DNA of 64,000 nt. Origin: Cliona cf. orientalis. Lineage: Eukaryota > Porifera > Demospongiae > Clionaida > Clionaidae. The notes beneath the pieces are model-generated. The model was not told the origin of the DNA. It saw nothing but the letters and a program-made list of their open reading frames with translations, and did no database searches. Location: assembly GCA_963930775.1 (NCBI GenBank), contig OZ005695.1, positions 8,184,001 through 8,248,000 of the forward strand, read 5' to 3'. The position numbers and the translations under genes are program-made. Positions 19,915 to 33,682 of the stretch are shown here, piece by piece. Each line of letters starts with the position of its first letter. Positions within the stretch are counted from its first letter, which is position 1.

Positions 19915-22900
19915 TCAAAGAAGTGGCTCTTCTAGTTGAATGACAGAATAGGTCACCTTATCTTTTGTTTCTGAACCATGGCTGCCTGTATGATCTGTTC
20001 CGTGTCCACTCTGTATGCCATGATTACTTCTTCTAAGCTTAAGAAGGTGGTGTTGTAGTTTCCTCACATTTACTAATAGCTTCTGCCCCTGATTTGTACC
20101 AAGTACCTTTGTCACAATGTGATAGAGAACGATAGCTGTGAATAGTGCCATGGTGATACCAATTGATACATAGGTGATAGGTTTGATCGAAATGAGAGCA
20201 TTGATCTGATAGAAGGTTGCGACGGACAAGATAAGTAGGTTTAAAACGAATGCTGTTTCAACCAAGTTGACCCACCATTTTTTATACACTCCACCTATTA
20301 GTGAGAGGTATGCAAAGAGGCTTGACATAGAAACTGATATAGCCAGCATATTGATTAGTGGGTTGCCACTTAAGTTGAAAGAGAAACATAGAAATAGACA
20401 GACTCGAATCAGCAGAAGTAGTCCAGTCCAGTAGCGATGTTTGATCTTATACGGTCCAGTGTAGGCATCAAACAGAGGTTGAAGTCTTTTCACCCAAAAC
20501 ATTACCTTCCTGTGGGACAATCTCTGCAACCATTGGATGCAGAAGAGTGTCACAGTGAAGGGAATGGAGATCAGAATAAGAAGACTTAGGGCTGCTATGA
20601 ATAGAGGGATGTGCTTTCCAGTTAAGTAGTCAATATTTCCGTCATAGAGCCAAACCCTTCTGCGATAACCATCTGGATAGACCAGTTCAGTCGACGAGAA
20701 CACTGTGATGATAATTCGTAAGAGCTTGGCATAGGAGAGGAGAAAGAGGGTGGCCAATACTTGAACAGCATTGTTGCCCACAAGCCTTGAGATTCGAGTG
20801 GAGTAGTGGCTGATCAAAATAATGACACTCAAAATGAACCAAATGTAGAGAGGAAAGAGAAATTGGAACCAGGTTTTGGAATAGGCATTCAGACCATCGT
20901 AAAGGCAGATTTCGATTCCCAAGTCCAGATTCAACCATGCTATGAATATGCTGAGGAATGAAGTGGACATGCTGTGTGGAAAGAAAACAGCACGATTGGC
21001 TCGAACGATATTAGCATAAAAGATGAGTCCATTAATGGTACCAGCCGAGACCGTCAGATTGAGAAACATGAGGCCAACCACTAGAGCTATCCCTGCTACT
21101 GCAATGAATGGAATTATCAAGGCTGCTATCCATGGCTTATTAGTGCATCGTTTGCATTTTGAAGTTCCAAGCATATTACTGTAGTTGACTTCACATGCTC
21201 CGCATAGAATACCTGACCGATAAAATGCACATTGTTGATCTGGGTAGTTCAGGTTGAGGGACTGAGTGCTTCCATTTGTCGAAATGCAATAATCAAAGGG
21301 GCAGTGATCGTGCACTAGCACACCTTCTGATTGGGACTGGGAACTAGTTAAGTGTATGTATGTTGTACCTATCCACTTTTGAGTTGGTCGTTGAACAGTG
21401 AGTGTATTAATGTCACAGTTTATTCCGTGGTCTACGAGTGTCCCATCACACATGCATTCACCCATTGATGTATCATACGTGAAGCCTACTGAACAGTTTT
21501 CACGCCGAAATAAAATCTCAAAAATCTCCTTTTGCTTCCAAGTGTGTTCAGCTGTAGTCAGCTGTAGTAATTCATATTCACTGGAGAAATGCACAGTGTA
21601 CGTCAGTTTAGTGCAGTGTGTCCCTGTGGATTGCACGTACTCAACCTGCTTTAGCCGACCACGTGACTGTTCCACGAAGCTAGCTCTAATTGTAGAGGGA
21701 ACAGTGCCGTATTCTTTGTTTCCATACTCACCGCCCACTGCAATGGCTTCAAATTCGTAAGACTGGCCTGGAAGTAGCCTCACTGATATTTTGGAAGCAC
21801 CACAGTCAGGCTTTGAATTACTACTAGTATTGCAAAAACAGATTTGGAGTGGAACTGAAGATACTAGGGATGTGTCGTTATCTGATAAACCATGAAAATG
21901 AAAATTATCGTAACTGATAATCCCTCCATAGACTGCACTGCCAGCCTCAATTGCGCTATTGTTAGTGAAGTGGAAATTTCCTCTTCCTCCAGCTGTAGCA
22001 AGATTATGATCATAGAAATTTCCATACTCAAATCTTGTTATTTTACGGATATAGTCATATTCCACGTAATCTTCGTCCTGTACAAATATCGCTCCTCCCC
22101 TTTTTGCATGGTTTCCTATAAAGGTTAGGTTAGTCGCTTCACTTCGAAATACAAGTACTGCTTTTTGATAGAATGTCATTGCACCACCATTGGTCCCACT
22201 GTTGTGGAGGAAATTGATTTGAGAATTTCCCTTGAATATGATGGTGGAATTGAACAGGATAATTCCTCCCCCGTCTGACCCAGAGTTGTTTGTAATATTG
22301 ATGGAAGAGTTTTGCATTTCAATGTACGACCCAGTAATGAAAACAGGTGCATAAAGAACAGCTGTATTTTGCATTACAATCATAGTGATACTTTCCATTA
22401 CCATTTTGTTATGACCTAGCAGTAAAACTGAGCCATGATTTTCTTGATAGACAAAGTGGCCTCTGAGAAGGACATTGCAGTTCTTGATAACTACATTATC
22501 TGTTGTACCTCTAATTGTTACATTACTAACTATGAGTCGTGGTGTCTCGGCTGCAAAGAGTGAATACTGTGTTCCAGTGTCATTTTCAATGATAATGTTT
22601 GAGAGCACCATCTGGTACCTGTAAATATCGGCTAATGTTGTGTTTTGCAGTAATTGGTTCTGCTGGTAGCCACGATTTGTGATCAACACTCCACCTCTTT
22701 TGAAATAGGCATAATTTATGTTGATAATCGTACAAGGTGCTCCAAAAGAGCTGTAGCATCTCTCTGTTGAAACTGAGGTGGAGAGTATCCATAGTCCGAA
22801 TTTGTTATCGACACTCACGGATGTTATGTTAACAATACTTACTTTACTTGTACGGTAATCCAGTTCCACAACCATATTGTATTTTGCATTTTTTATCATG

Positions 22901-23649
22901 GTGATGTTATGCACAGCAGCTGTTACATTGTACTTGGTCTGAAATAGTTTGAACACCACACCTGCTGTGCGAACACTTCGTATAAGTTCGTCCTTATGGT
23001 GACACGAGGTTGCCCCATTAAAATGGGAATTCTTCACACTAATAGCTACTGTATCATTAAATATTATGCTTCCTCTATCATCCAAAAAGAAGTAAAGGTT
23101 ACATGTATTGTCCGCAAATTCTGAATCTGATAGATCAAAAGATCCATGCACATTCACTGCCAGTAGACCTATGCCACTGCCGTTCTTCACCTCAACATCT
23201 GAAAGATGAACATTAGTGGAGCAAAGCATCAGTATCACAAAATTGCTAGTCACTGCACCATAGCCTTTCTCAAAATGAGCACCACAACTCTCAAATGTGA
23301 TTCCACTGATTGTCAAGTTTGTGCAGTAGCTGAAAGCGAAGCCTGCATTTCCAGTACATTCAATGACTGCGCCTTCACTAAAGTTGGCAGCAGTCAGTTC
23401 GAAGATGGTAGCATTACTGATGGAGAATACTTTATTGACAGCACTATTAATGCTGTGAATCCCTGGATACAAGAGGACGGTTATAGAAATGCTATCGGAA
23501 AGGATTTTGCTCTTTAACAGTGCTTGAAGGTTGTAACACTCAGCTGATTGACACTGTGGTACAGGTGGTAGTATGTGAAAGACTTTCGTTGGTTGAGCAA
23601 AACTAAGTGTGGCCAAAGTAACTAGTATTACAACTATTAGCCTGATCAT
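19915..23649 (-). CDS. Intronless beta-helix/multi-pass membrane protein, 1,244 aa
   Basis: A single exon from ATG at 23649 to TAG at 19915. The signal peptide MIRLIVVILVTLATLSFAQ is followed by the family N-terminal motif CQSAECYNLQALL. A long Asn/Ser-rich region carries Pmp-like motifs (GGGIILFNSTI, FLHNSGTNGGAMTFYQ, GGAIFVQDE, FTNNSA). Then come PGQSYEFEAIAVGG, a cysteine module (MCDGTLVDHGINCD, SGILCGACEVNYSNMLGTSKC) and a polytopic domain whose landmarks include [31 protein letters not shown] and LFAYLSLIGGVYKKWW. The tail ends IQLEEPLL, almost the same as the end of 7597-11328, so the two are recent paralogues; the cytoplasmic EEPLL may be an endocytic or sorting signal (inference). Many NxS/T sites suit a secreted ectodomain. 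It lies between the BRF-like gene and the NLR 3' end. Function unknown. Confidence 0.88.
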   Translation of the reverse strand: MIRLIVVILVTLATLSFAQPTKVFHILPPVPQCQSAECYNLQALLKSKILSDSISITVLLYPGIHSINSAVNKVFSISNATIFELTAANFSEGAVIECTGNAGFAFSYCTNLTISGITFESCGAHFEKGYGAVTSNFVILMLCSTNVHLSDVEVKNGSGIGLLAVNVHGSFDLSDSEFADNTCNLYFFLDDRGSIIFNDTVAISVKNSHFNGATSCHHKDELIRSVRTAGVVFKLFQTKYNVTAAVHNITMIKNAKYNMVVELDYRTSKVSIVNITSVSVDNKFGLWILSTSVSTERCYSSFGAPCTIININYAYFKRGGVLITNRGYQQNQLLQNTTLADIYRYQMVLSNIIIENDTGTQYSLFAAETPRLIVSNVTIRGTTDNVVIKNCNVLLRGHFVYQENHGSVLLLGHNKMVMESITMIVMQNTAVLYAPVFITGSYIEMQNSSINITNNSGSDGGGIILFNSTIIFKGNSQINFLHNSGTNGGAMTFYQKAVLVFRSEATNLTFIGNHAKRGGAIFVQDEDYVEYDYIRKITRFEYGNFYDHNLATAGGRGNFHFTNNSAIEAGSAVYGGIISYDNFHFHGLSDNDTSLVSSVPLQICFCNTSSNSKPDCGASKISVRLLPGQSYEFEAIAVGGEYGNKEYGTVPSTIRASFVEQSRGRLKQVEYVQSTGTHCTKLTYTVHFSSEYELLQLTTAEHTWKQKEIFEILFRRENCSVGFTYDTSMGECMCDGTLVDHGINCDINTLTVQRPTQKWIGTTYIHLTSSQSQSEGVLVHDHCPFDYCISTNGSTQSLNLNYPDQQCAFYRSGILCGACEVNYSNMLGTSKCKRCTNKPWIAALIIPFIAVAGIALVVGLMFLNLTVSAGTINGLIFYANIVRANRAVFFPHSMSTSFLSIFIAWLNLDLGIEICLYDGLNAYSKTWFQFLFPLYIWFILSVIILISHYSTRISRLVGNNAVQVLATLFLLSYAKLLRIIITVFSSTELVYPDGYRRRVWLYDGNIDYLTGKHIPLFIAALSLLILISIPFTVTLFCIQWLQRLSHRKVMFWVKRLQPLFDAYTGPYKIKHRYWTGLLLLIRVCLFLCFSFNLSGNPLINMLAISVSMSSLFAYLSLIGGVYKKWWVNLVETAFVLNLLILSVATFYQINALISIKPITYVSIGITMALFTAIVLYHIVTKVLGTNQGQKLLVNVRKLQHHLLKLRRSNHGIQSGHGTDHTGSHGSETKDKVTYSVIQLEEPLL

Positions 23650-24133
23650 CTCTGCTCATGCAGACATTGATATGTGTACTGGCGATTGATGGTCAGATTG
23701 AGAAATAGTAGGCCTATATATACTCTATAAGCTTCCCATATAGCTAACATGGGGGAAATCCTTGAAGCCAATGCAATATTGATGTAACAGGGCCAAGTGT
23801 TGCAGAACAAACAAAACATCCCAAATATGGAAAACACCAGCTTGTTGAGTAGTAATAGCTAATATAGGTTTCTACAAATTAAGTACTGAGTGTACATTTA
23901 TTGACAATAATTAAGGTGGATGTCCCAGCTATGTGTCACTAAACTTGTAACTATAGCTAATAATATTATTTTGTATGATAAATTTAGAAGCGATTTTTTA
24001 AAGACTGCTCATGCAGTATGGCTTGATTTTAATATAAATTTTCATGGAAGAAGTATGACATTGTAACTTGATACACACAACTCATATCCAAAATTTGGTA
24101 CAAAATTAACATACCGGTATTAATATTATTATC
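23650..24133. other. Intergenic region, beta-helix gene 5' side and NLR 3' side
   Basis: AT-rich, with no ORF of substance. It should contain the promoter of the 19915-23649 gene near 23700-23850 and the 3' UTR of the NLR near 24133. Nothing else recognisable. Confidence 0.5.
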
Positions 24134-25455
24134 TCAGATTTTTATTTGCAGTTTAGCCATTTCTTTTGTCCTATTCTCTTCAGCTTCTCTTAATTTCTCA
24201 TGTTCAGTGAATGAGTTAGCTCTAATGCTGTCATTTTAAACAAGCGAGAGGAGAGATAAGTATTAACAATGATTGTCTCTGTGTGTATACATCGATCATA
24301 ATGTGCTTACTCTAGTTTTTCAAGATTATGAGCACTTGAAATCAGTTTTCTCAAAGATGTTAAACTTTCGTCCGTGATTGAGTTGTTGAACAAGCTATAA
24401 TACAATTATTGTCCAATTGATCCAGCTATAGCATCTATGATCTCCATAATGATCAACGTACTCAAGTGTGATCAAATTCTGATTGCTCTTCAATTTGGTG
24501 ACCCCTTCGCACAAAATTTCCACTCCAGAATCCTCCAGCTTATTCTCACGGAGGCTGTATACGATTCACACCATGTATATGTATAATATAATAAAAATGA
24601 TCAAGTCTGATATGCTTATATACCTTAAGACTCTTAGACGTTCTAAAACTCCAGAGTCTACTAAAATCTGAATTCCACTGGCACTGATGTTATTCTTTTG
24701 AATGCTAAATGCAAGTTACGTGCAGATGTCATTGATAATTTTTATACTTGTGGGATGACTTGGGGAGTCATAAATAATTAGAGGGAACTGAAACTTATAA
24801 TTTAGCTTACTCAAGCTCACGAAGACTTGAATGACATTTTAGACCTTGTACAAGACAAGAGAGTCCATCATCACAGAGTCCAACTTTCTGTAAGCTGCAT
24901 AGATGTGTTTGATATGAAGCATTCTACACCACTGCATAGACTACAAGTATACACTCTAGTAAATCTTGTAGCTATACCTCAGCTGTTCTAACTGTTTGCA
25001 GTTATTGCCGAGGAAGAAGTCAGCCAAATGTTTTGCACCAGCATCACCAATCTTATTCCGGCTAAGACTGTACAAGAGAATAATTATAACAAGATGGGTG
25101 GATGACTAATAGTTTTGTGTCATGATGATCAATACAATGTCATGATAATTATGTACCATGACGTGTATCATATTGTGCATCATCATGATATGTAACCTCC
25201 GAGCTCTAGGCTGGAACACTGGAAAGGTAGACTGCAGATATTACCACAGCTAGTTAGGCTTCTGTATCACAGCCATGCATGCATAGGAGACTGAAATTAG
25301 CCTGTACATGCAGGCATTCCAGGATGGGGGTATTCAAGGGAGGAGCCTGGGTGACCCCTATTAAGTCATATTATGCCCAGGACCTTATATACAGCAGCTT
25401 TTTTCTATAGCATTATGACATTGTGTAGGCAGACATTACCAGGGTTTCATCCAGT

Positions 25456-25492
<37 letters not shown>

Positions 25493-28400
25493 AGGGGGGA
25501 AGCTTCCCCTCCAAACTCCTTAGCTTCCCCCCCTAAAAATTTGACTTTAATTAAATTAAGCATCATAATATCACAGTAAATCACCAAATAAAATCACTAG
25601 CGTTTCTTTTTGATCAACAATTATCCGAAACAATATGGAAGAATTAAAGAAATTCTCCTAAAATACGTCCCAAGGAACTTGGCATGCTGAATACGCCCAC
25701 TCATTTATCGCGCTTCCACCCCAAATTTTTGTCGCTGGATGAAACCCTGATTACTTACACAATGCTTTGAAGAGCAGAGCAGTGAAACAGACTTCTGCCA
25801 AGTAACTCTACTGCTTCTTCATCCAAGTTATTGCTATCAAGCCTATAGGGAAAGATGTAGTATACTAATCACATAACAGCAAATAATCAGAAAAAGTATT
25901 ATACTTGAGCACTTGAAGATTTTTCCAGTATTTAAATCCCTCATTTAGAATACCTATACAAGGTACAGCAATACTGGAATCCAATAACCTAATTATTAAG
26001 TGAGCAGTCAATAAATTTTAATATTTTGAATGAAATTCGGTAGAGAAACATACACTATCTCATGAAGATTTGAGCTACTCCGTAATCCTCCAACAAAATT
26101 GTGGACCTCATCCACTCCAAGTTTTGCATAAAAGATTCTAATATAACAATGTCATAAGGATAACAGATTCAGTGACTGTACACATAATAATATTCACACA
26201 CCGTATCATTATCATAATTATTTAGCATAGGTATAATAATTATTTATAGAACTTACTTGATTCGATCCAAATTATTGATTGGAGACCTACTCAAACCTTC
26301 CAAGAATGTAGTAGTTGTTTTCCGTCCACTATAATTTTATATTATGCAAACAGACAATTTTTACTATACTATTATGTTATTATGTCTGCTACTAATAAAG
26401 ACTAACGAGATCATTAGGTCAAGTGGTACATCGGCTACTCGCTGAAGAAAGGCAACCACTCCTTCGATCTTAAAATGAGATTTGTTGAAGTCAATCGCTA
26501 CTTTCTGATCAGGATTTTGAGTACTTGCACTATTGGCAACGTAACCAATAGCGGTGCAGTCTGAAATGGTGAACTGTTCCTTTGAAGGTAGTCGAAGAAT
26601 ACCACTTTGGAAAATACGTGCACAGCACTCTCTCTGCTGAGATTCATAAGCAAAGTAGATTTTGGTCATAATGTTCATACAAGCTTGGGAGTACAAGATA
26701 TGGTTAAAGACCACCATACTCGCTTCGATCGAATAATCCAGTGTGCCACAGACGAACTTCAACACGAGATCAAAGGCACCGTTTCCTTTGTACTTCTTTA
26801 TCAGTTGCAGCTGGTGGCTAGGATCCAATCCACTTATGTACACGGCAGCTAGATATTCCTGAAATGTTAAATGGAAGAAGGAATACACATCCTCTCTCCC
26901 ACGCAGTGCAACTTGCCGATCTACAACGACTAGACCAAGAGTATCTTCATCGCTCCCTTTACCTCCAGACTTCAAGATCTTCTTATCACTCAATTCAGAT
27001 GATTTGAAGGATTGCTTCATGGACACAGTGGCATCAAAAGCAAGCTCACAAATCTTATCAAAAAGTAGCCTATCTTCAGGTGAGAGATCGCCGTATGAAT
27101 TCAAGAATGTTATAGGCTCAGGGTCATTCCTTTTGTTAATAGAACGCAGCAGAACTGAAAGTGTGAAGTGGAGATACATTCGGGTCTCAGTTGCTGGCAG
27201 TTCAATGTCTTCTTCGTACAAAAACACAAGCATATTCAAATGGAGTGGTGAATAGCATGTATTCATCAAGTTGCGATGCTGCTCCAGGTGTGAAATAAGC
27301 TTCTGTGCTTTTTGTGTATCATCAGCAAAATATCTATTGACATATTCGGGAATCTGTGTTCCAGTAAACCCTATCACCTCAATCAGCAAGCTAGCATTTC
27401 TCCGGTAAGCCTGGGTCCCGGCAGGTCTCGATGTGATGAGAACTGTGGACTTGGGTAGAGTGCGTTTTGTCATTAGCTTGTGAATAAAATCACCTTTGGA
27501 TTGAGGAGAATATTCATCAAGTCCGTCCAATGCAAAGACAACATCTTCACCACTGTGAAGGATGATCTGAGAGCAGAGGGAATCAAGAATCCCGGATGCT
27601 GATAAATCTTCGAACAATGCTGAAAGCATCGAAAGCAAGGTCAACTTCTCCTCAAGACCCTGGAGCATTCTAAGTTGCACAAGAAAAAATAGCTTGGACT
27701 GCAGAATCGTCCCCTTGGCCCAATCTTTGCTTATCTCAATGATGAGAGTGGTCTTTCCGCTGCCCGGTCTCCCCTCGATTATGATTCGGATTCCAGATTT
27801 GGACTGTAACTTGTGAAGCAAGTCACTGTACTCGATCTTTGCCTCTCCGACCAGAGTTGAATCCACTTGTTGTCTGACCGTAACAAAGCTGAATGTTTGC
27901 TGATTTGGTTTCTGCTTGATCATAGTGAATGGAACAAACATGGTGGCTTTCACTGGAGGCCAGTTCACTTCCTCTCCTTCTTCAATCTGCTCCAAGTAGT
28001 AAGTGGACAGCATTCTTCGACAAGTATCATATGGATCCTCTAAAAGGTTTTGAGATATTCAGATAATTTTTGTGCTTCATACTCCTATAATAATAATATT
28101 ATACATACCTGAAGTTAAATACATTTCAAGACCTCCACTGAAACCACATACAGGTGATACTGTAAGAGGGTATGACATTGTGATAATGAATATCGTACTG
28201 TGTATACACAGGCTACACGTACATGTAGTGACTTTTGCTGTAACATGATCTCACCTGGTCTAGATCTCCTTCCTGCATAATGTTGACCTCTAGTCTCCAG
28301 ACTTGGTGAAAGTGCCATAGCAGGGTGATCAAAATATGCCGGTCTAGATACTGGGCCAACCATGGTGTGCTGATCGGTTATAACTGTGGAACAAGCATAC

Positions 28401-29491
28401 GATAATATATGTAGCTATTGTATTTATTATTCTCTCCCTATCTCCTAGTTCTAATCAATACTGAATCATCACATGCCGTATCTACCTGGATGGTGAGCTG
28501 CTATTTCTTTGGCAAGAGTGTGGTCATTTCCCCCCGCTTCACTGTCAACAGCTTCCACAAGCTTCCTCCATGTTGGAAGACCGAACCTTGCCGTGTTGTA
28601 CTTCTGTCGCAGCCAGGCTAGGACAACTTCAGTTAAAGCAGTGCCAACATCAACGATGCACAGTGGTGTTTTTTGAATGCTCTCCAGTTGAGCATAGCTC
28701 AAGCCTAGGATCATCCCAAAAGCCTTATAGTTTGCCTTAACACGAACTATCTCCTTCATGATATCGCCAATATCTTCTTCTCCTATTATAGTAATGTAGG
28801 CTTATAAATCTTTCTCTAACTACAGTTTATACTAGTAAAGCATCTATAATTTATGCATGTGTTTACCTAATATCTGGCTGTTGTCAATGTTATTGTAGTC
28901 AAGATCTGTTTTGAGAATAACATAATATCTTATCAGAGTTACAGTGTCATAATAGAATGTTGTATTCCAAACTCTAATGTGATGTTTAATAGTGTATGGC
29001 ATGCATTGAAATAGTTTTTGCTGTTAACCGAAACTGATCATAGTGTACGTAGGTTTTGAAAACTGACAAAATCATCATAGGAATAACACTGGATACACAA
29101 AGAAGCTAAGATATTAAACTAAATAAACTTAATAATGGCATGCAGTTTATTATCATTTTTTGCCTCCAAGTCTGTGAAGTTTGATTGGCATGGGCTTTAA
29201 TACTATACACATGGAAATATTTATTGCCAAGTGATGTTAATTCAGTAGTAAAGAACATCACATTATGGTAGTATAGTACTTTAGCCTCATCCCCAGGTCC
29301 CTCCCAGGTTTTCATTGATGACTTAGAAATGAGCCCGTCCAACTTCAGGTAGTACAATCATTTTTAATACCTGGGTATCTTCCAACAGGTCCAGGGTTAA
29401 GTTCAATATCTCCACATCTTAGCAATAGTGAGTTCCTGGACACGCTAACTCGAGAGACAATGGCCAACGTGATAATCATGATCACTTCCAT
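24134..29491 (-). CDS. NLR receptor: 2A leader-DEATH-NACHT-LRR, 16 exons, 1,039 aa
   Basis: A cytosolic pattern-recognition receptor of the metazoan NLR family. Exons 5' to 3': 29371-29491, 28867-28905, 28486-28782, 28255-28383, 28109-28159, 26407-28039, 26257-26328, 26054-26137, 25905-25988, 25759-25842, 24978-25067, 24811-24894, 24624-24704, 24462-24554, 24311-24394, 24134-24227. All phases join, giving 1,040 codons with TGA. Residues 1-35 are a hydrophobic leader ending in CGDIELNPGP (2A). Residues of about 54-152 are a DEATH fold (ALTEVVLAWLRQKYN...PTWRKLVEAV). The NACHT domain has Walker A GRPGSGKTTL (302-311), Walker B ALDGLDE (382-388) and sensor LITSRPAG. Nine RNase-inhibitor-type LRRs follow, one per exon of about 84 bp (e.g. 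LSRNKIGDAGAKHL). The last exon ends in a charged helix. Family knowledge: the NACHT oligomerises on ligand sensing and DEATH recruits adaptors; ligand unknown. Confidence 0.9.
25440..25749. mobile_element. MITE with 15-bp perfect TIRs, ATTAC target duplication and internal poly-G
   Basis: The ends CAGGGTTTCATCCAG (25440-25454) and CTGGATGAAACCCTG (25735-25749) are perfect reverse complements, and ATTAC directly abuts each end, so the element is bounded by a likely 5-bp target-site duplication. Inside is an uninterrupted G run (25456-25490). It lies in an NLR intron between two LRR exons (25759-25842 and 24978-25067). No transposase is encoded. Confidence 0.85.
29387..29416 (-). other. 2A ribosome-skipping motif in NLR exon 1
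   Basis: Codons 26-35 of the NLR read CGDIELNPGP, matching the D(V/I)ExNPG|P consensus of 2A peptides. The glycyl-prolyl bond between residues 34 and 35 is the expected skipping site. The preceding 25 residues (MEVIMIITLAIVSRVSVSRN...) are short, hydrophobic and signal-peptide-like. N-terminal 2A leaders on echinoderm NLRs are reported to act as dual signal/recoding elements; extension to this gene is inference. Confidence 0.85.
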
Positions 29492-29653
29492 CTTGCAATT
29501 GGGCTTTGTTCTATAGATTTGCGCATGCGCGTGGCTATGGTGCTTAGGCCCCGCCCTTTCATATTTTGTTTCCGGTCTGCAACAATGGGAGCTGCTATAC
29601 AAGGTTAGCAAGATGACAAAGCATCCAGATCTGGAAAGCCATCCAGCTCCATC
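29492..29653. promoter_or_regulatory. 162-bp bidirectional promoter between the NLR (-) and beta-helix receptor (+), with NRF1-like palindrome
   Basis: The two ATGs diverge at 29491 (minus) and 29654 (plus). GCGCATGCGC at 29521-29530 is an NRF1-type palindrome, the same core as at the DNA-PKcs/BRF-like promoter. No TATA box is evident. Shared use of this interval by both genes is inferred from spacing. Confidence 0.65.
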
Positions 29654-32600
29654 ATGAAACCCTGGTCCCTATCACTGATTTTATTGATCTTTCTACAGGT
29701 GGTGACAAACAACGCTCGACATCTCTGTGTCACAGTTGATGGAGAATGCAACAGCCAGTCGTCTGCCGAAACTACGAGCACCCCTTGTGGCAGTGGTGAT
29801 GACGTAATGATCCCAATACTCACTAGTAGTGGGTCTGGAGCTGGAACAGAAGATGATCAGCCACTACACTGCTATACCCTGGAGAACGCTCTGTTGCAAA
29901 TGCGCTCCAACGATACCCTTCATCTTGCGTCTGGTACCCACACTCTAAGCAATGCTACGTCTAGTGTGATTGGTGACTTATCAGGAATAGCAATATTTGG
30001 AAATCCATTGAATCACACAAAAGTTATTGTCACTTGTGCGAAAGGAGTAGGGTTCAGTTTTGTGAACATGACAGGACTGACTCTATCAGGTTTTATCGTG
30101 GATGGATGCAGCATCAGTGGGTCCCAGGCCATGATCACAAAATTGGATCATTCCGACGAATTTTTTTCCCATCCAGTTATAGCAGACTTTGTTGGTGCTA
30201 TCTTCATTGTGCAATGTTCAGACCTTCTTGTTGAAAACGTAACAGTCCAAAATAGCCACGGCTTTGGTGTTGTAGGGTGGAATTTGTTCGGAGATTCGCG
30301 TTTTTGCCGAGTAAATTTTCTGTCAAACTCCCCAAGTGCTTGCTTTTTTGAGGTTGAAGACCATCATGATACTTCTGTCAGTCAAGGCTTTGGGGGTGGT
30401 GCTTTTATAATGTATCAAGATGTTGAAGACACACGGAATGCTGGATCGAAATTCACCGATAATTCACTCTCCTTTGATGGAGGACTGATAGCTAACAATT
30501 ACGGATGTCGACGTGGAATTGATTCAGTTATCTTTAACAACCTCTTTAGATCAGTCGCCAATAGTCAAAATTTAGCCGGAGCTGGAGGTCTTTCGATTGT
30601 ATTTGGACAATCTAGCTTCCATGTGAATGCAACTATCACTTCATACACCTTCCGTAATAACACCAACCTGTATGCTGGAGCGGGCATGATGGTACTCATT
30701 TATGAACTAGCTAACAGATCTGATGTTTATATTATTGACTCAACCTTCAAGGACAATGGTGTTACATCAAGAACTGTGTATGGTGGGGTAACTAGTGGAA
30801 TACAAGGGGCCCTCTCAGTCTTATTTTATGTTCCCATTCCAAACGCTCAACTGGATAAAAGCTTACTCTTGACCTACTTACACCAGTTACCAAGCAAAGT
30901 CCATGTACATAGCACAGTATTTGCTAATAATTCTGCCCAAGCTGGAGGAGGGCTGTCTGTCTTATCATTTGGTGCCTCGCAAAGCTTCGTCCACGATCAG
31001 CTCAACCTCGAAGATTGCACGTTCAATTCCAATACAGCACAACACGGAAGTGCTATCTATGCTACCGAAATTACATACAGTGGTTTCGAGCAGGGCCTAG
31101 AAATGTCTCTTAGGAATATCAATGTGACCGAGAGCATGGGTATGTTTGAAGCAATTAGCCTAAATCAGCTCAAAGTTTCCCTCAGTGGTGTGAACATTTT
31201 TCGAAGGAATAGGGTTACAGCCCTGAGTTTGAACAGAGCAATTGCTGTATTCTCTGGAACTAACACCTTTAGGAGCAATATTGGGAATAATGGGGGAGCA
31301 ATTCACCTGAAAACGTCAGAGTCTTATATCGTCGTACGCGATAAAACGAATGTTTCATTTATTGCAAATGAAGGGAGAATTGCAGGTGGGGCTGTATTTG
31401 TTAGTTTTGATATCACCAGCACTGTTTCTTATGACTGCTTCGTCTTCATTGAAGAGTTCAATCCATTCTGTCATCATTTGAATGACTGTTCCACATATGG
31501 GGTTAGCATTGCTTTCATTAACAATACTGCTCCCTTGGGAACTGCCCTATATGGTTCCACATTGTACAATTGCCCGTGGAGCAGTGGTGTGCACTATATC
31601 GACTACGACAATCGAACTGTGCACATGATCGCTCAGGACATAATCAACAGTTTACACAGTGCCGAATCATGGTTGCACTTCTACCCTCAAGTGAACGGAA
31701 GCAATAATGTCATCAACACGCAGCCAGAGTCTATTGTTTCAAAAGACTATGACTCCAGTCCAAGCTTCAGTGTCACACCTGGAGGACAGTTCACTCTTAA
31801 TCTGAAAGCACTCGATCACCTTCTCCAACCTGTACCACTCACTATACTCTCACACATTACCTCTCCAGATGGAAGGGACGTGACAGATGCAAGAGCTTCT
31901 ATAGGAGCAACCGATCGCTACTTACTCATTGGTGCGGAGGAGTACACCGAAGTTCCAATCAGTGTATATGGGATGGAGGATACTACCTACATTGTAACCA
32001 TTACGAGCAATGAGGCTTCAGTTGAGTTTGATATTACTGTCAACATGAGAAATTGCTCTGTGGGTTATGGATTCAATAACGAAACTGATTTCCCCACTTG
32101 TGAGTGTGAGGTAGACGATATTCTGCCAGGTATCATTTGCAATGACGATGGAACTATCACAACTGATTCCAACAATTGGGTGGGACTGCTAGAAGACTCT
32201 GGCGAGTACATCCAACACGGTTGCATTCTGAACTATTGCAATCTTGACGTGACTGTTGTGGACCTTGGTTTCACTGATGAGCAGTGTGCCGATAATCGAG
32301 CAGGCATCCTCTGTGGTGGCTGCTCACCAACATACAGTCGTGTCCTAGGCTCCACACGTTGTCTCTCTTGTCCGGATAACAAAACTCTAGGATTAATCGC
32401 TCTCTTTGCAGTACTTGGCGTGTTACTGGTGATTTTAATTAAAGTCTTCAATGTTACGATAACGGACGGATATATTAATGGTTTTATCTTCTACAGTAAT
32501 ATCCTGAGTATTTACTTGAATAACCTTTCCAGCTCAGAGAGGATACCATTTTTTGTATCAATGTCCTTCATGAACCTTAATTTTGGGATCGAGACTTGCT

Positions 32601-33682
32601 TTTACAGTGGAATGTCCCAAATACACCTATCTGCTCTGACGCTGGTGTTTCCCATCTATCTTCTTGGCATATTGCTGGTGATAGTCTTGTTCACAGAGTA
32701 TGTATATCTGAGTACTCGTGTGGAAAAACTTCTCAAACATATGATTCCTAGGAGAAAAAGTAAACCCAGTGATGCCACAAAAAGTGCCGACGATATTCAT
32801 TCCAACATCATCCAAGTATTGGTCACTCTACTTCTGTTTTCCTACACCAGTATCATACAAACTTGTTTCGATATCCTTGGCATTGTGCTGATCAACACTC
32901 CCTCTGGAACAATAGTGAGATGGGGAGATGATCCGAATCAAAAATACTTCAATGGAATTCATATTCCTCTCTTCTTTATCGCTCTTGCGCTGCTCATAGT
33001 GCTGATTCCAATTCCATTCCTGCTTACATTTCCACGGATTATTCTCAGTTGGCGATATACTCACAAGCTCAAGCCACTTGTTGATGCAGTTACTGGACCA
33101 TTCGGGGAGAGACGCCGATTTTGGTTGGGATTTCGACTACTCTGCCGCTTGGTCATCCATTTTATTGCTGCCCTTGGACTCCAAACATCTGGTGACCTGG
33201 TCTTGGCAATCATCATAATACTACTCCTGGTGATCCAGTCATCAGTATGGCCCTACAAGACAATGGCTCGCAATCTATTGGATCTTTCATTGATAACTAA
33301 CCTCGCAATGATTGCTGTCCTCAACCTATACGTGGAACGCGATGTTATGGAAAGGAATGTACTGATAGCATTTACTGCCATTGCCATCTGTGAGCTAGCC
33401 TTCCTTGTGTGCTACTACATTATCGTCAAGTTCTCTTTCACCAGGAGAATCTCCGAAGCTCTCGCCAGAAAGACTAAGGAGCTGGGCATGAGGATGATGA
33501 GACAGTACCAGTGCAAGGCTGCAATACTCAGAAGAAGGATTAGTAGGCAGGAGGACCTACAAGGACTGATAGATGAGTCAAAACTGAGTGGACGAATATC
33601 ACATACGAGCTTGCGTCTAGGAAGCACGTCTTCTAATGTACTACGTGAGGCTTTGCTTGAAGAAACTGAGTTTGTGTACTGA
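29654..33682 (+). CDS. Diverged beta-helix/multi-pass membrane protein, 1,342 aa, single exon
   Basis: One open exon from ATG to TGA. A signal peptide (MKPWSLSLILLIFLQVVTNN) is followed by the family motif HCYTLENALLQM. The ectodomain has many Pmp-like units: GGGAFIMYQD, FRNNTNLYAGAGMMV, FANNSAQAGGGLSVL, FRSNIGNNGGAIHL, AGGAVFVSF, FINNTAPLGTALYG. After PGGQFTLNL come the cysteine module (CECEVDDILPGIICND; AGILCGGCSPTYSRVLGSTRC) and a polytopic domain with FMNLNFGIETCFYSGM, HIPLFFIALALLIVLIPIPF, AVTGPFGERRRFWLGFRLL and SSVWPYKTMARNLLDL. The cytoplasmic tail is basic and Ser-rich and ends EALLEETEFVY. Sequence is well diverged from 7597-11328 and 19915-23649, so it represents a second subfamily. 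It is head-to-head with the NLR, and its stop lies 116 bp before ERCC1. Function unknown; surface receptor or adhesin likely. Confidence 0.87.
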   Translation: MKPWSLSLILLIFLQVVTNNARHLCVTVDGECNSQSSAETTSTPCGSGDDVMIPILTSSGSGAGTEDDQPLHCYTLENALLQMRSNDTLHLASGTHTLSNATSSVIGDLSGIAIFGNPLNHTKVIVTCAKGVGFSFVNMTGLTLSGFIVDGCSISGSQAMITKLDHSDEFFSHPVIADFVGAIFIVQCSDLLVENVTVQNSHGFGVVGWNLFGDSRFCRVNFLSNSPSACFFEVEDHHDTSVSQGFGGGAFIMYQDVEDTRNAGSKFTDNSLSFDGGLIANNYGCRRGIDSVIFNNLFRSVANSQNLAGAGGLSIVFGQSSFHVNATITSYTFRNNTNLYAGAGMMVLIYELANRSDVYIIDSTFKDNGVTSRTVYGGVTSGIQGALSVLFYVPIPNAQLDKSLLLTYLHQLPSKVHVHSTVFANNSAQAGGGLSVLSFGASQSFVHDQLNLEDCTFNSNTAQHGSAIYATEITYSGFEQGLEMSLRNINVTESMGMFEAISLNQLKVSLSGVNIFRRNRVTALSLNRAIAVFSGTNTFRSNIGNNGGAIHLKTSESYIVVRDKTNVSFIANEGRIAGGAVFVSFDITSTVSYDCFVFIEEFNPFCHHLNDCSTYGVSIAFINNTAPLGTALYGSTLYNCPWSSGVHYIDYDNRTVHMIAQDIINSLHSAESWLHFYPQVNGSNNVINTQPESIVSKDYDSSPSFSVTPGGQFTLNLKALDHLLQPVPLTILSHITSPDGRDVTDARASIGATDRYLLIGAEEYTEVPISVYGMEDTTYIVTITSNEASVEFDITVNMRNCSVGYGFNNETDFPTCECEVDDILPGIICNDDGTITTDSNNWVGLLEDSGEYIQHGCILNYCNLDVTVVDLGFTDEQCADNRAGILCGGCSPTYSRVLGSTRCLSCPDNKTLGLIALFAVLGVLLVILIKVFNVTITDGYINGFIFYSNILSIYLNNLSSSERIPFFVSMSFMNLNFGIETCFYSGMSQIHLSALTLVFPIYLLGILLVIVLFTEYVYLSTRVEKLLKHMIPRRKSKPSDATKSADDIHSNIIQVLVTLLLFSYTSIIQTCFDILGIVLINTPSGTIVRWGDDPNQKYFNGIHIPLFFIALALLIVLIPIPFLLTFPRIILSWRYTHKLKPLVDAVTGPFGERRRFWLGFRLLCRLVIHFIAALGLQTSGDLVLAIIIILLLVIQSSVWPYKTMARNLLDLSLITNLAMIAVLNLYVERDVMERNVLIAFTAIAICELAFLVCYYIIVKFSFTRRISEALARKTKELGMRMMRQYQCKAAILRRRISRQEDLQGLIDESKLSGRISHTSLRLGSTSSNVLREALLEETEFVY

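Follow-up and report, generated by a model that had tools for sequence, protein, structure and literature searches.

The window, a stretch of 64,000 nucleotides from the genome of the sponge Cliona cf. orientalis, harbors on its minus strand a gene for which we derived a model of 15 exons and 14 GT-AG introns, encoding 1022 amino acids with a single terminal stop and all joins in frame. The model was assembled from sequence landmarks, from which its splicing was also deduced. Exon 1 (29371..29491) forms the 5' end of the coding sequence and specifies a leader and a 2A motif before a phase-1 donor (CCAG|GTATTA). It is followed by exon 2 (28867..28905), exon 3 with a DEATH domain (28486..28782), the linker exon 4 (28255..28383), exon 5 with the NACHT domain (26407..28039, placed by Pfam and the gene model) and exons 6-15, the leucine-rich repeats (24134..26328), with the stop codon at their end. 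Exons 2, 3 and 4 are in phase 1 at both ends; the first four introns are phase 1 and the remainder, those of the repeats included, phase 2. Exon 2 fits in frame between GT-AG introns but, short at 39 nt and placed by its splice sites and frame, is the least certain exon of the model. The repeat exons are 26328..26257, 26137..26054, 25988..25905, 25842..25759 and 25067..24978 (exons 6-10), and 24894..24811, 24704..24624, 24554..24462, 24394..24311 and 24227..24134 (exons 11-15). A 35-base run of G (C on the minus strand) lies at 25456-25490, in the intron between repeat exons 9 and 10.

Pfam placed NACHT at residues 281-435 of the spliced protein (4.1e-24) and LRR_4 at its C-terminal end (2e-9). 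The DEATH exon of the window itself found no match in the Pfam search; Pfam Death was matched by 12 of its 17 aligned relatives, and a profile of these 17 found the death domains of FADD and CRADD in the PDB (best E 0.0014). Left out of this alignment were L029, a locus with a stop inside the match, and the second copies in two-gene loci. Exon 3 is, by assignment through its relatives alone, a divergent DEATH domain, and the gene, in which NACHT and LRR share a single open coding sequence, is on its predicted domains a DEATH-NACHT-LRR receptor.

Exon 1 translates to MEVIMIITLAIVSRVSVSRNSLLLRCGDIELNPGPVGRYP, after which the phase-1 donor follows; its ATG is at 29491 and the GT donor lies 3' of 29371. 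The original prediction had placed here a hydrophobic leader ending in CGDIELNPGP, and exactly this is read on the minus strand from 29491 to 29371. It had also held that the exon splices in phase to the DEATH-NACHT-LRR exons, and the model agrees, since the phase-1 end of exon 1 meets position 28905 and the 15 predicted exons stay in frame. Up to the skip point the exon yields MEVIMIITLAIVSRVSVSRNSLLLRCGDIELNPG|P. Its parts are a hydrophobic stretch, VIMIITLAIV (residues 3-12, 29456..29485), which is a candidate signal h-region, the L-rich hexapeptide LLLRCG (residues 22-27, 29411..29428) and, directly adjoining it downstream, the 2A core DIELNPG|P (residues 28-35, 29387..29410), identified by motif match. 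The skip is predicted between Gly34 (29392..29390) and Pro35 (29389..29387). The ATG is the first in its open frame and has a good context (A at -3, G at +4), and the only leaders that could start in this frame are 34 and 30 amino acids long. An out-of-frame ATG in weak context at 29526 would overlap the receptor start if the transcript begins above 29526. A gap of 162 bp (29492..29653) separates the receptor ATG from that of a divergent gene on the plus strand, and because this neighbor starts so close, there is little room within the gap for another upstream exon, though one may lie farther away. The gap, presumed to be a two-way promoter, contains a GC-rich box and the palindrome GCGCATGCGC (29521-29530), which we take to be NRF1-like.

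DIELNPGP conforms to the D(V/I)ExNPGP core of StopGo/2A sequences and is the only match with up to two mismatches in the window, where shuffling gave an expectation of 0.03. In the genome (217 Mb in 149 contigs) the exact motif occurs 152 times and its reversed pattern not once; this control and the window shuffles rule out a chance motif. Searching without the leading Gly returned the same total (47 + 105), Gly thus preceding the core in 152/152. Coordinates are available for 147 of the 152 sites, and all positional counts given below rest on these. Insertion of a virus or retroelement at the locus was rejected as well, the 2A frame continuing into the intact receptor model; among the frames scanned around the 2A exon, no transposon frames were seen. 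Two pairs of closely spaced motifs were found on contig C10, each above one DEATH exon, at 760125 and 760495 (370 nt apart) and at 774007 and 773803 (204 nt apart, a multiple of three); they could be tandem skips or alternative first exons.

The residues before the core fit a known StopGo class. LLLRCG has the form of the L-rich StopGo context described in PMC12846837, a hexapeptide ending in (A/S/C)G before a core that starts with D, and a motif-6 member of this class was reported there to be active in lysate. Among the distinct host peptides, 23 of 23 have G at position 9, S, C or A at 10 and hydrophobic residues at 12 and 13. For the sea-urchin leader SpNLR2A6, PMC4981915 gives an estimated skipping of ~80%, which was substantially lowered by changes of R11, L13 or L14; all three residues are present in the window leader. 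Between the window and L019, the closest sequenced NLR paralogue, the 15 codons of SLLLRCGDIExNPGP differ by eight synonymous and two nonsynonymous changes, although eight of the 15 are core codons demanded by the search itself, so that the selection signal outside the core comes from seven codons. In SLLLRC the codons have changed synonymously and the amino acids have stayed the same. The corresponding ratios of other pairs, from short and noisy stretches, were 0, 0.19, 0.34, 0.60, 0.64 and 1.15, and a selection signal in the 2A tail is only suggestive on these comparisons. Leader parts gave 0.36-0.51 in four comparisons within the EEN family, and 0.73 between L025 and L033, where the two sequences were compared without gaps and are probably misaligned. 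As a general gauge of purifying selection, synonymous changes within the core were discarded because the third positions of N, P and G barely vary within the compared families. Altogether, StopGo at Gly34/Pro35 is likely, judged by the canonical core, the L-rich context and the retention of the motif in whole paralogue groups (see below).

We think it highly improbable that the motif is instead a relic without activity that duplication or mobile elements have spread. Helitrons of the same genome do carry it, and its AAC-CCT-GGA codons are so uniform that recent copying or conversion is possible, but a decaying relic fits poorly with 152 exact sites against only 22 more when one mismatch is allowed, with the purely synonymous change in SLLLRC and with an L-rich context kept in every distinct peptide. 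As to the codons themselves, they are nearly fixed at the 31 2A sites with sequence (AAC 24/31, CCT 29/31, GGA 30/31), and the same codons make up 39%, 32% and 38% of the respective usage in eleven downstream frames. Common descent, conversion or a constraint on the nucleotides may each account for this.

That the leader also directs the receptor to the ER is less sure. Its best 9-residue Kyte-Doolittle mean is 3.22 and ranks among the highest 3.3% of 1631 frames beginning with ATG; its weight-matrix cleavage-site score of 3.28 is reached by 21% of these frames and lies below the customary 3.5. The n-region contains a Glu and no basic residue. For the L019 leader the score is 7.7, and for GD(V/I)EENPGP-family leaders, read from their 43-44 aa start, it is 4.4-6.4. 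At several ankyrin-type loci the core is preceded by an open frame of 150 residues or more that lacks a defined start; as long frames of this sort are seen at many related loci, short signal leaders are not the rule. The original prediction of a receptor made in two forms, one leaderless in the cytosol and one leader-fused in the secretory pathway, is partly supported: skipping at Gly34/Pro35 is well supported by the sequence features given above, whereas the secretory form is weakly predicted for this leader (3.28 < 3.5, no basic n-region residue) and is plausible by analogy with SpNLR2A6. In PMC4981915, the wild-type sea-urchin product was ~85% cell-associated with 15% in the medium, and the skip-dead form 56% cell-associated with ~44% in the medium.

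We consider it rather probable that exon 1 equips a DEATH-NACHT-LRR receptor with a StopGo leader, so that a leaderless cytosolic form and a minority of leader-bearing, ER-capable chains arise. In most passages the ribosome would release a 34-residue peptide ending in NPG and resume at Pro35, giving the leaderless cytosolic receptor; in a minority the Gly-Pro bond would be formed and the chain, keeping its hydrophobic leader, could enter the ER. The expected outcome is a mostly cytosolic receptor starting at Pro35 and a minor leader-bearing form. The ribosome tunnel holds roughly 30-40 residues, and a leader of 34 residues would thus be mostly inside it at the point of choice. With the leader still in the tunnel, skipping would be decided first and SRP would see mainly read-through chains; longer leaders could be captured by SRP before skipping. 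Inhibition of 2A by signal sequences is reportedly the subject of PMC2978324. In this explanation the splicing of the RNA, how efficiently the ribosome skips, passage into the ER and whatever the ER form might do are inferred. It is conceivable that the released N-terminal proline could set receptor stability via a Pro/N-degron.

A rival account accepts active StopGo but denies that secretion of the receptor is its point, the receptor being cytosolic in practice. The leader might then bring the message to the ER surface, the released membrane peptide might be the product, or the skip might simply make a hydrophobic exon upstream tolerable for a cytosolic receptor. We regard this as unlikely, yet deserving of weight: the 2A core is kept while the leaders vary widely in length and sequence, the signal score of the window leader is borderline, and in the sea urchin the wild-type product stayed largely with the cells (PMC4981915). 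On the other hand, L019 keeps a strongly signal-like leader, the GD(V/I)EENPGP leaders score above the cut-off, and the sea-urchin leader, once skip-dead, put nearly half of its product in the medium.

The leader-2A exon is not confined to the window. The sequence around 33 sites was examined, two of Helitron type and 31 not. In 31/31 of the latter the highest-scoring donor is in phase 1 and falls 1-16 nt beyond the last Pro codon, and among 22 DEATH exons of these loci the highest-scoring acceptor is phase 1 in 21, the sequences being related and hence not independent. With a single DEATH query, a DEATH match follows on the same strand, no more than 5 kb downstream, at 65/147 sites. When a second query was added (matches overlapping those of the first were not re-entered, and the weak fragments C18:7148071, C18:7148141 and C10:8003960 were left out), this held for 92 of the 130 sites outside the part of contig C1 beyond 18 Mb, a split chosen after the data were seen; random placement of the sites in 1000 rounds gave a mean of 0.68 and a maximum of 5. 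On the opposite strand, DEATH was found within 10 kb of 0/147 sites. Seen from the other side, an exact 2A motif lies up to 5 kb upstream of 91/205 DEATH loci. The leader-2A exon of the window is one of a large class and not peculiar to a single gene.

Among the 2A loci fetched with 10 kb of sequence, 21/27 contain a window-type DEATH match and 8/27 a window-type NACHT match. Selected frames downstream of 2A encode, according to Pfam, NACHT with LRR or COR-A, long ankyrin arrays, TRADD-like_N beside ankyrin, and SPRY-RING; at the SPRY-RING locus, L022, a DEATH exon was not found and the tie to its 2A motif is positional only. The motif is present at DEATH-ankyrin genes and also at Helitrons. 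With 152 exact sites and several gene architectures, the view of one receptor with an unusual start, as originally predicted, was too narrow.

Not every NLR of the genome has the module. An exact 2A motif lies up to 10 kb upstream of 45 of the 184 merged NACHT loci and is absent there in 139. Loci at least 57% identical to the NACHT frame of L020 have it upstream in 25/26 cases, and those that match the window NACHT in two pieces in 10/12; C2:7047077 and C4:11328058 are group members lacking an exact motif. Both groups were picked by NACHT similarity, independent of the motif, though the query of the larger one, L020, is itself a 2A locus and the smaller was defined after seeing the data. The large NACHT clusters on C14 and C6 have no or few exact motifs upstream; for C14 there was none among the matches used (one NACHT search supplied 75 main matches of 116). 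From the near-complete retention in two groups and the lack in other large clusters it follows that the module follows NLR lineages, and from the 139 loci that it is dispensable in other NLR groups; as predicted from these positions, 2A use divides NLR lineages inside one genome. The many NACHT loci that lack the motif and the paired motifs on C10 could also be taken to mean that exon 1, though real, belongs to another or alternative transcript and that the main message uses a first exon free of 2A. This is quite improbable in our judgment in view of the in-frame GT-AG model, the phase-1 donor and acceptor conserved across families, and the retention of 2A in the two paralogue groups.

The closest known precedent are the SpNLR2A leaders of Strongylocentrotus purpuratus NLRs (Roulston et al. 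2016, PMC4981915). They share with the window leader a 2A of the GD(V/I)ExNPGP kind at the N terminus of a DEATH-NACHT-LRR protein with hydrophobic residues before it, and the tested SpNLR2A6 has G9, R11, L13 and L14 in common with it. The 26-residue sea-urchin peptide is signal and 2A at once, whereas the window leader has 34 residues and a separate hydrophobic stretch; also unlike SpNLR2A, the motif here closes a phase-1 first exon at its 3' end and is found ahead of DEATH-ankyrin genes as well as in Helitrons. Nowhere in PMC4981915 do the terms sponge, Amphimedon or Porifera appear. The L-rich StopGo motifs 2 and 6 of RNA viruses have the same (A/S/C)G-ending hexapeptide before D(V/I)ExNPGP, but here the motif is cellular and N-terminal; PMC12846837 describes cellular StopGo use as rare or absent and cites the sea urchin for signal-leader use only. 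In a literature search, none of the matches listed reported 2A for sponge NLRs or for Helitrons. We make no claim to a first report, since Rao et al. 2025 (Cell Rep 115822), which PMC12846837 cites and which surveys 2A sequences of eukaryotes and viruses, may already include genes of this sort. The window gene alone would be another case of the sea-urchin kind; what departs from it is a modular phase-1 exon across architectures, and its scale.

It is tempting to speculate that the leader-2A exon is a portable phase-1 module that fits symmetric phase-1 DEATH exons and that two or more architectures, DEATH-NACHT-LRR and DEATH-ankyrin among them, have acquired or retained. We offer this tentatively, as a possibility that may well fail; on the same tentative reading, a large share of the animal's death-domain repertoire would be under StopGo control. 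Most mapped exact 2A cores precede death-domain genes and, if they are active, one animal would use ribosome skipping widely enough to make it a layer of gene expression in innate immunity, in which single residues preceding the core could tune the choice between cytosol and ER. As one genome contains both paralogues that have the motif and paralogues that lack it, its function is directly testable.

The module may have been moved or copied by Helitrons of this genome, whose leader and 2A resemble it, and the exon could have passed from Helitron to host gene or the reverse. Two Helitron-type elements, L026 and L027, have a hydrophobic leader and 2A before the Rep-helicase region; the L026 frame (1250 aa) contains Helitron_like_N and a PIF1 helicase (Pfam). 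PMC4981915 names 2A-like sequences of non-LTR retrotransposons, which likewise lie in the frame of a mobile element, the elements here being Helitrons (PF14214). Of the 147 2A sites, 12 (ten on C1, one each on C9 and C14) are followed on the same strand by Helitron_like_N at a distance of up to 6 kb, and none has it on the opposite strand. The linked regions are C1:18.0-34.1 Mb, C9:3682827 and C14:1726077, and it is GDIEVNPGP sites that accompany the Helitrons on C1 beyond 18 Mb. This part of C1 holds 64 of the 124 Helitron matches used (of 150) and 17/147 2A sites, together with 0/205 DEATH loci and one of 192 NACHT matches; it may be a distinct chromosome arm, or a sex or B chromosome.

The window also contains two long single-exon frames, one of 1357 aa at 29609-33682 on the plus strand and one of 1246 aa at 19915-23655 on the minus strand. 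No family reached the cut-off for either in the Pfam search; both open with a signal-like sequence and have several hydrophobic segments towards the C terminus.
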